Part shown: positions 3,824-13,278 of the stretch, piece after piece
How positions within the stretch are numbered: position 1 is the stretch's first letter
Layout of the letters: each line of letters opens with the position of its first letter
NCBI GenBank assembly: GCA_018062785.1
Contig: JAGORO010000011.1
Location: 1-36,597, forward strand
From: Candidatus Saccharimonadota bacterium
GTDB taxonomy: Bacteria; Patescibacteriota; Saccharimonadia; Saccharimonadales; UBA4665
Direction of reading: 5' to 3'
DNA length: 36,597 nt
The notes under the pieces: model-generated
What the model was told of the DNA's origin: nothing
The model's database searches: none
Seen by the model: the letters and a program-made list of their open reading frames with translations, nothing else
Made by a program: the position numbers and the translations under genes

Positions 3824-3859
3824 AGCGAAGCGGCTTTTTGAGTGTCAAAAGGGGGTGTT

Positions 3860-5674
3860 ATGAATTACTTTATCTACGTTCGTAAATCGACAGATGTCGA
3901 GGACAGACAGGTATTATCTGTCGAGGCACAGGTAGTCGAGCTAAAAGAATACGCTACTAAATACAAGTTAGATATTGTCGATATTTTCATCGAAAAACGC
4001 ACCGCTAAAAAGCCCGGTCGCCCAATCCTCAATAAAATGCTCGCGCGCATTTCATCGGGCGAAGCTAGCGGCATTTTGTCATGGCTACCAGATAGATTAT
4101 CTCGTAATTCCATAGATAGCGGACAAATTATCTATATGCTTGATGAGAATATATTGCTTGACCTAAAATTTCCGCATTTTTGGTTTGAAAACACGCCTCA
4201 GGGCAAATATATGCTGGCTAATGAGTTTAATTCGTCCAAGCAGTACGTAGACAATCTGTCAGTCAATACCAAGCGCGGTTTGCGCCAAAAGGTTCGGCGC
4301 GGCGAAATGCCAGGCGTTGCCCCTATTGGCTACTACAACGATATGCGCACCAAGACAGCCAGAGTAGACAAGAAAACCGCGCCTGTTGTTGTGCAAGCCT
4401 TCGAGTTATACGCGCGTGGCGACCAACGGCTCGACCAGATTACAGATTTTCTGTATCAGAGCGGCATAAAAACAAAAGCGTGCAAAGTACGTGGTAAAAC
4501 AATGACTGGCAAAAAGCCGTATTCGAGAAATCGCATAACACATATATTGAGCAACCCGTTTTACTACGGACATTTCCGTTATCTTGGCGAAGTTCACGAG
4601 GGCAAACACAAAGCGATTATCTCGAAACAGCTGTTTGACGAAGTGCAGGAAGTAATGAAACGGCGAGGCAAGCCACAAAGAAAAGCCAATGATCCAAAAC
4701 CGCTGTGCGGTCTTGTCTATTGTTCGTGCGGTATGATGTTTACGGCTGAAACACACACTAAACGCCAGAAAAACGGTAATGTGCGTACCTACACTTACTA
4801 TCGTTGCACTCGCAAAAGCAAAACAGTCGTCTGTCGTGAGCCACATATTCGCGCAGAGGAGCTGGACAGACAACTCTCAAGATTGTTGCGTGGCTTTTCT
4901 TTGCCCACTGCGTGGGCGGACAAGATGCGTGAACTACTGCGCAAAGACGAAGCCAGAGAGAAAGCTGAATATTCCACGAATACTGAAGTCTTGCGAACCG
5001 ACATCACGCATTTGTCTGATAAACTGGCGCTTTTGCTTGAGAGTTACCTAGATGGCGACGTTGAGCGCGAACTTTACCAAGACAAACGCGCGGAAATACT
5101 TGGACAGAAGAAACGGCTTGAGGAGAAAATCGAGCAAGCAACAGTCGGCGTGTCGACTTGGGTCGAACCGATGAAACAATGGATAGAAACTGCCGTTTCT
5201 ATCCATAAAATTGCAAAGTCGGACGATTTACAAGCCAAAAAGTCCTTATGCCTTGAAATCTTCGGGTCGAACCTGCAAATGCGACAAAAAGAAGTCGTCA
5301 TAAATGACGAGCAATTTCCCAATTCCCCCCAAGAAAACCTTTGGTCTGCGCTGCGCGTGACCAAAGAAAAAGCCGCCCGACAGGGCGACAATTTCCAGTT
5401 CTGTTCTGATTTGGTGCGGGTGGGGGGAGTCGAACCCCCGTCTCATCCTTGGGAAGGATACATAATAGCCGTTATACGACACCCGCGTCGGAATGGACGA
5501 CCCTACCTCGTTTTGCCGCATGCGGCAAAAGCTTCGGTCTGGGTCTATATTCCTCCTTCTCAAAATTCCATTCAGTCGACTTCGCTCCTTGGATTGGAAT
5601 TTTGGGTGCGGCCTTTGGCCGCAGAAAGTAAGATCGGTACGAATGACGAATTTACTTCGGTATTCGTACTATAG
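3860..5674 (+). CDS. Large serine recombinase (resolvase/invertase family)
   Basis: A site-specific DNA recombinase that cuts and rejoins DNA through a serine-DNA intermediate. The N-terminal catalytic domain starts MNYFIYVRKST with the nucleophile Ser near residue 10. LSWLPDRLSRN carries the conserved arginines. The recombinase domain follows (KRGLRQKVRRGEMPGVAPIGYYND). A Cys4-type zinc ribbon (CGLVYCSCG...YYRCTRK...VCRE) lies at about residues 283-335, and a coiled coil follows. The ATG at 3860 has AAAGGGGG 6 nt upstream, so I prefer it to the GTG at 3842. The last real residues are probably around FQFCSDL (about 5410). Beyond this the frame runs antisense through tRNA-Gly (giving VGGVEPP, a typical tRNA shadow) to a TAG at 5674. 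The C-terminus therefore depends on the insertion site. Confidence 0.9.
   Translation: MNYFIYVRKSTDVEDRQVLSVEAQVVELKEYATKYKLDIVDIFIEKRTAKKPGRPILNKMLARISSGEASGILSWLPDRLSRNSIDSGQIIYMLDENILLDLKFPHFWFENTPQGKYMLANEFNSSKQYVDNLSVNTKRGLRQKVRRGEMPGVAPIGYYNDMRTKTARVDKKTAPVVVQAFELYARGDQRLDQITDFLYQSGIKTKACKVRGKTMTGKKPYSRNRITHILSNPFYYGHFRYLGEVHEGKHKAIISKQLFDEVQEVMKRRGKPQRKANDPKPLCGLVYCSCGMMFTAETHTKRQKNGNVRTYTYYRCTRKSKTVVCREPHIRAEELDRQLSRLLRGFSLPTAWADKMRELLRKDEAREKAEYSTNTEVLRTDITHLSDKLALLLESYLDGDVERELYQDKRAEILGQKKRLEEKIEQATVGVSTWVEPMKQWIETAVSIHKIAKSDDLQAKKSLCLEIFGSNLQMRQKEVVINDEQFPNSPQENLWSALRVTKEKAARQGDNFQFCSDLVRVGGVEPPSHPWEGYIIAVIRHPRRNGRPYLVLPHAAKASVWVYIPPSQNSIQSTSLLGLEFWVRPLAAESKIGTNDEFTSVFVL
5312..5416 (-). 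repeat. 105-bp inverted repeat B, right arm
   Basis: An exact inverted copy of 3557-3661. It encodes the C-terminal end of the recombinase, and its last five bases are the 3' end (discriminator and CCA) of tRNA-Gly. Recombination between the two arms would invert the recombinase. Confidence 0.95.
5412..5486 (-). tRNA. tRNA-Gly (anticodon CCC)
   Basis: A cloverleaf on the minus strand: acceptor GCGGGTG/CACCCGC, anticodon loop TTCCCAA, T loop TTCGACT, with an encoded CCA. The 3' end coincides with the end of the recombinase cassette, as expected for an integration site. Confidence 0.95.
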
Positions 5675-5733
5675 ATATAGGAAAAAGAGCAGCGAAGCGT
5701 TGAGAAAAAACCTTTGGTTTTGTCTCAACTTTG
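5487..5733. other. Intergenic hairpins between tRNA-Gly and tRNA-Thr
   Basis: No gene seen. Palindromes are present: TTTTGCCGCATGCGGCAAAA at 5511-5530, CAAAATTCCA/TGGAATTTTG (about 5561-5604), TGCGGCC/GGCCGCA (about 5608-5624) and GTACGAAT/ATTCGTAC (about 5637-5669). These may be tRNA processing or termination structures. Confidence 0.5.
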
Positions 5734-5809
5734 TGGAGCCACCTAGCAGGATCGAACTGCTGACCTGCGCGTTACGAATGCGCCGCTCTACCAACTGAGC
5801 TAAGGTGGC
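5734..5809 (-). tRNA. tRNA-Thr (anticodon CGT)
   Basis: A minus-strand cloverleaf: acceptor GCCACCT/AGGTGGC, D stem GCTC/GAGC, anticodon loop TTCGTAA, T loop TTCGATC, with an encoded CCA. The discriminator is U, so the 3' end is UCCA. This matches the UGGA of the thrS T-box at 11301-11304. The last pair of the anticodon stem is an A-C mismatch. Confidence 0.93.
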
Positions 5810-10882: not shown

Positions 10883-10990
10883 TGAGGTGAGGTTTTGCCG
10901 AGAGCGTTTTAAGCGATTAAGCGCGAAGTGTGGAAACTTCATTAGGGAAAGAAGTCGGACGTCATGCGAGAACGCCCGACTTTTTATTTT
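10883..10990 (+). ncRNA. Candidate small RNA, about 105 nt
   Basis: The region lies between a -10 box and a clear terminator (AAGTCGG/CCGACTT, 10952-10982, then TTTTTATTTT). Inside are a GAAGT/ACTTC hairpin (about 10925-10940) and a GCG-rich stem (about 10904-10924). No ORF is credible. It shows no SRP RNA, 6S or tmRNA hallmarks that I can see, so the identity is open. It may also be a leader peptide or attenuator remnant. Confidence 0.5.
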
Positions 10991-11038
10991 GGCCTTCTTT
11001 TCCTTTACGCCATTCCTCTTTGCGCTCCCCAGCTTCGA

Positions 11039-11111
11039 AATGGTGTGAGGTCTAACCTTTCACCACCTAAAGTCACCGATGTTATGGTGAAAGGTTAGAC
11101 CTCACACCATT
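11039..11111. repeat. Perfect 27-bp palindrome with 19-nt loop
   Basis: Positions 11039-11065 and 11085-11111 are exact reverse complements. There is no T-run, so it is not a terminator. It looks like a small non-autonomous insertion or a protein-binding cruciform. It lies between the small RNA and the thrS leader. Confidence 0.85.
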
Positions 11112-11173: not shown

Positions 11174-11201
11174 TTGGAAGGGGGTGTGGTTGGTATATAC
11201 T
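11174..11201 (+). promoter_or_regulatory. thrS: Promoter of the thrS leader
   Basis: TTGGAA (11174-11179), a 16-bp spacer and TATACT (11196-11201). Transcription would start near 11208, just before the T-box stem I. Confidence 0.65.
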
Positions 11202-11207
11202 GTTGCA

Positions 11208-11386
11208 TAGGCAATGAGGCGGATTCACCAACCGCGGAGCTTCATCGACATGGCGATAACAGATGTAAAAAGGCACCATCGCAAGAGGAAACGCCCCAGG
11301 TGGAACCTCCGATATATCTGCGAGAATATCGGACCCGAGGCACGCCAGAAATGACCTATTAGAGTCAAATCGGCGTGTTTTTTATT
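11208..11386 (+). promoter_or_regulatory. T-box riboswitch (threonine) controlling thrS
   Basis: Stem I: ATGA/TCAT (11214-11217 with 11242-11245) and GCGG/CCGC (11219-11222 with 11232-11235) enclose a loop with ACC at 11227-11229 followed by A, a Thr specifier codon. Antiterminator: AGG, then the 7-nt bulge UGGAACC (11301-11307), then TCCGATAT pairing perfectly with ATATCGGA (11326-11333), then CCC. This matches the canonical T-box with its UGGNACC bulge. UGGA complements the UCCA end of tRNA-Thr at 5734-5809. Terminator: CACGCC/GGCGTG (11341-11346 with 11372-11377), an inner TGAC/GTCA, and six Ts. Uncharged tRNA-Thr should favour read-through into thrS. The stem I is short compared with classical T-boxes. 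Confidence 0.82.
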
Positions 11387-11424
11387 TGCAAAGTTATGTA
11401 AACAGAAGCACTAAGGAGGCGTAC

Positions 11425-13278
<1,854 letters not shown>

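Follow-up and report, generated by a model that had tools for sequence, protein, structure and literature searches.

Gene regulation in Patescibacteria has, to our knowledge, been the subject of almost no studies, and the locus described here raises the question of how a threonyl-tRNA synthetase gene might be controlled in a member of this phylum. The window, i.e. the whole stretch of DNA that was analysed (36.6 kb; 36,597 nucleotides), is contig 10 of an 862-kb genome in 22 contigs, and the nearest named relatives of its thrS belong to Candidatus Saccharibacteria MAGs. The gene occupies positions 11425-13278 of the forward strand, on which all features of its leader also lie. It encodes a threonyl-tRNA synthetase of 617 aa (TIGR00418, 588 bits against a cutoff of 384, E 2e-176), as had been proposed, and starts with the ATG at 11425, with an AAGGAGG at 11413-11419. 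A preliminary description of this DNA had placed a threonine T-box riboswitch before thrS in a CPR bacterium, and this reading now draws on the saccharibacterial relatives, a Thr specifier, a fitting bulge, a terminator and conservation across the order. The T-box-type leader extends from 11209 to 11343, and the terminator and U-tract come next. Downstream of a promoter, a hairpin of 34 nt that displays ACC comes first; it is followed by a pseudoknot and a purine linker, and then by the antiterminator, with its UGGAACC bulge, and a terminator with U6. Judged from the sequence, it is very probable that the leader is a minimal type of T-box riboswitch which would control thrS through transcription attenuation. 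Its identity as a T-box appears, on comparative grounds, close to certain, while tRNA binding, the sensing of charging and the direction of control (readthrough on uncharged tRNA) would follow by analogy with known T-boxes.

The promoter that had been claimed for the leader is of the sigma-70 type and is found at 11174-11201 (TTGGAA, 16 nt, TATACT). A TA-rich -10 hexamer lies 12 or 13 nt upstream of Stem I in 41 of the 62 related leaders, and since this distance is nearly fixed the RNA probably begins at Stem I, i.e. with the sensor. Further upstream, at 11036-11111, there is a long inverted repeat with arms of approximately 27 bp. Such arms, about 25 bp long and 90-100% identical, recur at four other sites of the genome (G000:C13:79190-79281, C11:17796-17887, C13:61088-61117 and C15:20077-20107), two of which have them as facing pairs, and the repeat is classed as a REP/MITE-like element.

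Sequence and covariation define Stem I (11209-11242) as a C-stem (11209-11212/11239-11242) and an upper stem GCGG/CCGC (11219-11222/11232-11235), with a k-turn-like GA/GA pattern (11216-11217 and 11237-11238) after a 3-nt bulge. The hairpin reads GCGG-AUUCACCAA-CCGC, and its terminal loop holds the Thr codon ACC at 11227-11229 with a conserved purine next to it. In relatives the same layout is seen (C-stem, 3 nt, GA, 1 nt, 4 bp, a loop usually of 9 nt, 4 bp, 1 nt, GA, C-stem), which by its sequence is the pattern of a k-turn hairpin whose terminal loop carries the specifier. When the triplet ending two bases before the loop end was read, ACN not having been required in the search, a Thr codon was found at this register in 55/55 leaders (ACC in 47, ACG in four, ACU in three and ACA in one). 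The specifier ACC of the preliminary description is therefore upheld, and so is its impression of a minimal Stem I, which has only the k-turn and 4 bp, stops at the specifier loop after a total of 34 nt and lacks the distal, elbow-binding part.

The position before thrS and the resemblance of the hairpin to an anticodon stem are also what would be expected if the leader mimicked tRNA-Thr and was bound by the synthetase, as is the thrS operator of E. coli. However, the loop holds the codon ACC and not an anticodon, and mimicry would explain neither the terminator nor why the UGGA bulge is conserved. Classical attenuation, in which ribosomes stalling at the Thr codons of a leader peptide would set the terminator, could make use of an open frame that begins with an ATG at 11250 and spans the leader; yet this frame has, by eye, one Thr codon, L002 and other relatives have no such start in the same stretch, and it is the structure rather than a peptide that is conserved, so that control of this kind is extremely improbable.

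Stem I of the proposed T-box is followed by CAUC (11243-11246), which covariation pairs with GAUG at 11262-11265 in a pseudoknot; GAUG lies in the loop of a hairpin (11253-11282) whose helix GCGAU/AUCGC (11253-11257/11278-11282) is found in both of the covariation alignments described below. Three core pairs of the pseudoknot are present in 20/20 seed sequences and two of them change on both sides. It is because of this aligned covariation in the 20 seed leaders that the pseudoknot is accepted, and not because of a crude 4-bp search, which is weak evidence (32 of 55 leaders versus 36% in shuffles). We infer that it is homologous to the Stem IIA/B-type pseudoknot. In the 20-leader alignment a purine linker, AAGAGGAAA at 11283-11291 (consensus AAGAGuAAA), precedes the antiterminator. 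The distance from Stem I to the bulge has a median of 55 nt, which pseudoknot and linker occupy; no S-turn helix was identified in it, and Stem II appears to be missing from the thrS leader, where there seems to be too little space for one.

Folding and covariation place the antiterminator at 11293-11341, with helix A1 (11293-11300/11334-11341), helix A2 (UCCGAUAU/AUAUCGGA, 11308-11315/11326-11333) and the 7-nt bulge UGGAACC (11301-11307) between them; folded alone, it gives this shape at -13.8 kcal/mol. The bulge had been described as having perfectly paired flanks, which is true of A2, with all of its 8 bp paired, but not of A1, where GCC/GGC is followed by a C-A mismatch, then by a C-G pair, then by an A-C mismatch and finally by GG/CC. 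The loop of A2 contains the heptamer TGCGAGA (11319-11325), which occurs again at 10965-10971 and also in L007, L012, L021, L025, L029 and L058. Many terminator-like hairpins in Saccharibacteria have it in their loop region, with a placement that looks regular, and the total count of the heptamer in the window is not above chance.

The intrinsic terminator noted earlier is confirmed as GCACGCC...GGCGUGU followed by U6 (11340-11383; -16.0 kcal/mol folded alone), and a downstream U-tract accompanies 57 of 62 leaders versus a background of 38%. The 3' strand of A1 has two bases in common with the terminator core and about five with an extended 5' arm (from about 11337), a small overlap that makes the switch less sharply defined than that of a textbook T-box. 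Since the A2 helix is compatible with both the antiterminator and the terminator state and could stay formed in each, the switch appears, as modelled here, to work through the outer A1 helix. The U6 ends 29 nt upstream of AAGGAGG, which the predicted terminator fold leaves out, and sequestration of the ribosome-binding site, a trait of translational class II T-boxes, was not found in the thrS leader. Besides this small overlap and the lack of an RF00230 match described below, another result counts against the T-box reading: unconstrained energy folding does not produce Stem I and pairs the specifier loop with GGUGGAA instead. Plain energy folding of the sensor part was no better than that of shuffles. 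The pairing of loop and GGUGGAA was considered as a real off-state that would hide both tRNA-contact sites and was rejected; ACG specifiers and UAACC loops break it, and it is therefore probably incidental to the complementarity of ACC and GGU.

As for the tRNA partner, the genome has three tRNA-Thr genes (UGU, GGU and CGU), of which tRNA-Thr(GGU), at G000:C13:5643-5714, pairs with ACC at all three positions, unlike the other two. The UGGA of the bulge is complementary to UCCA (discriminator plus CCA), an end which among the 37 tRNAs is carried only by the three tRNA-Thr and tRNA-Cys, so that a full match to both contact sites is found in tRNA-Thr(GGU) alone. A tRNA-Thr within the window (5734-5809, reverse strand) had been cited as independent support; its UCCA end does fit the bulge, but its anticodon is CGU, which reads ACG and is not the cognate of the specifier, and the cognate GGU gene lies elsewhere. 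Beside this tRNA gene and one for tRNA-Gly, which together lie at 5412-5809, a gene at 3842-5674 encodes a large serine recombinase, a relative of CcrB/CcrC/XisF; the arrangement is like that of an integrated mobile element.

The search with Rfam RF00230 (gathering cut-off 93 bits), suggested earlier as a check, was negative over the leader even at E 10; neither this model nor Rfam overall matched the leader, and RF00230 matched nothing in the genome. Because RF00230 misses the thrS variant, a covariance model (R1) was built from 20 aligned thrS leaders and calibrated. With R1 the thrS leader scores 95.8 bits (E 1.2e-22) and is the sole copy in the genome, where the next-best place reaches 12.9 bits (E 0.69). 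Lack of conservation of specifier and bulge in related thrS leaders had been named as the observation that would speak against a T-box, and both are clearly conserved. In the 20-leader alignment, pseudoknot included, 90.7% of cells are paired versus 31-43% in slid controls, a comparison that favours the real structure as it was derived from the same 20 sequences; 18 of 26 pairs change on both sides, and none of 500 shuffles equalled the real structure on any of five measures. A second alignment, of 41 matches that nearly all lie outside the training set but were themselves aligned by fitting to R1, has 93.0% of cells paired, with changes on both sides in 21 of 23 pairs. Among the weak R1 matches, L190, L191, L196 and L198-L205 had no T-box parts by eye and were discarded as chance, and L197 is the antiterminator of a genuine thrS leader.

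Of the 149 related genomes (family and order), 73 have an R1 match, and almost all of these have just one. The approximately half of the genomes with no match would suit a T-box relic, kept by descent after switching was lost in the source genome; against this, no damage is seen there in specifier, k-turn, bulge, A2 pairing, promoter or terminator, and compensatory changes run across the family, which leaves a functionless leader highly improbable. Of 380 Patescibacteria genomes, 13 have a match above the RF00230 cut-off (the best at 126.5 bits) and many more have weaker ones, and in G266, G162, G333, G352 and G374 matches of RF00230 and R1 coincide. These coincident matches indicate that the thrS element is a T-box that has diverged and not a look-alike of independent invention. 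Two T-boxes in the survey have unusual neighbours. L182 (G374:C1:55235-55490; 99.4 bits, above the RF00230 cut-off) precedes a gene of 313 aa with no NCBIfam match, an unusual target, and L159 (G162:C58:37186-37309), with specifier ACU (Thr) and bulge UGGAACC, has as its nearest large downstream ORF one of 196 aa which has no NCBIfam match and is not thrS.

Although trained on thrS, R1 also finds leaders of other genes in the 380 Patescibacteria genomes. The expected gene was noted from specifier and bulge before the downstream genes were searched for families, and the searches agreed with the predictions for three glyS leaders (GGC or GGA, bulge UGGA), one ileS leader (AUC, UGGU), one serS leader (UCC, UGGC) and two proS leaders (CCC, UGGU). 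L185, before valS, had no readable specifier. The discriminator of tRNA-Gly(GCC) is U in the three glyS genomes, as the UGGA bulge requires, and A in the source genome. Throughout the phylum, specifier and UGGN vary in step with the amino acid of the gene that follows, and this switching of specificity, as read from the leaders, speaks for recognition of codon-anticodon and acceptor end over mimicry of tRNA-Thr or a control peculiar to thrS; autoregulation by the synthetase has, on this evidence, very little probability.

Compared with the canonical transcriptional T-box (RF00230; Bacillus type), the thrS leader has the same specifier codon in Stem I, a UGGN antiterminator bulge matching the discriminator, a competing terminator and an aminoacyl-tRNA synthetase gene downstream. 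However, it has neither an RF00230 match, nor, it seems, space for Stem II, nor the distal module of Stem I, which in Bacillus-type T-boxes binds the tRNA elbow. The glycine T-boxes (glyQ) are likewise transcriptional and lack Stem II, as the thrS leader appears to, but their Stem I is still long and touches the tRNA elbow. Saccharibacterial ileS leaders (L256, L257, L258 and L260, weak with RF00230 at 40-49 bits, and the similar L259) were assigned to ileS, in the case of the first four, from sequence and 62% identity to the copy of the source genome, whose own ileS has no T-box. In these four, Stem I has a k-turn, equals that of the thrS leader in size and carries AUC as specifier in its terminal loop, and the bulge is UGGUACC, but their middle part is longer and contains Stem II-like AGUAGA and GUGAA motifs. 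The loss of Stem II in glyQ has been attributed to its all-GC codon (PMC7583486), an explanation that fails for the ACC of the thrS leader. Short Stem I's belong mainly to translational T-boxes, and Stem II is held essential where Stem I is short (PMC7583486). The ultrashort-Stem I translational T-boxes of actinobacterial ileS (Sherwood 2015), as summarized in PMC7583486, resemble the thrS leader in a short Stem I with no elbow-binding module; the thrS leader differs from that summary in having a terminator and U-tract, with Stem II apparently missing and the pseudoknot alone left. TBDB applied its class II model to Actinobacteria, and also to those class I hits whose Stem I was truncated (PMC7778990).

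By analogy, the terminal loop of Stem I would offer the codon ACC to the GGU anticodon of tRNA-Thr, and pseudoknot and purine linker would position the tRNA near the bulge. The UCCA end of an uncharged tRNA-Thr would pair with the UGGA and stabilize the antiterminator, and RNA polymerase would continue into thrS. A charged tRNA would make no contact with the bulge, the outer A1 helix would open, and its freed 3' strand would join the terminator, halting transcription before thrS. More broadly, and with appreciable doubt, Patescibacteria probably hold a phylum-wide class of minimal T-boxes that attenuate transcription by means of a bare specifier hairpin, k-turn and pseudoknot and that lack both Stem II and an elbow-binding Stem I. 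If so, a kinetically controlled T-box could do without contacts so far regarded as necessary to it, and a very small transcriptional sensor of this kind would be useful for asking which tRNA contacts matter. No description of T-boxes in Patescibacteria was found in the literature searched, a partial search that may have passed over an earlier mention. The thrS element carries T-boxes well into this phylum and shows that RF00230 overlooks a whole subgroup of them. Patescibacteria, being dependent on amino acids, would be expected to monitor tRNA charging, and the thrS element would provide a regulator that can be put to the test in a lineage whose genetics is just emerging.
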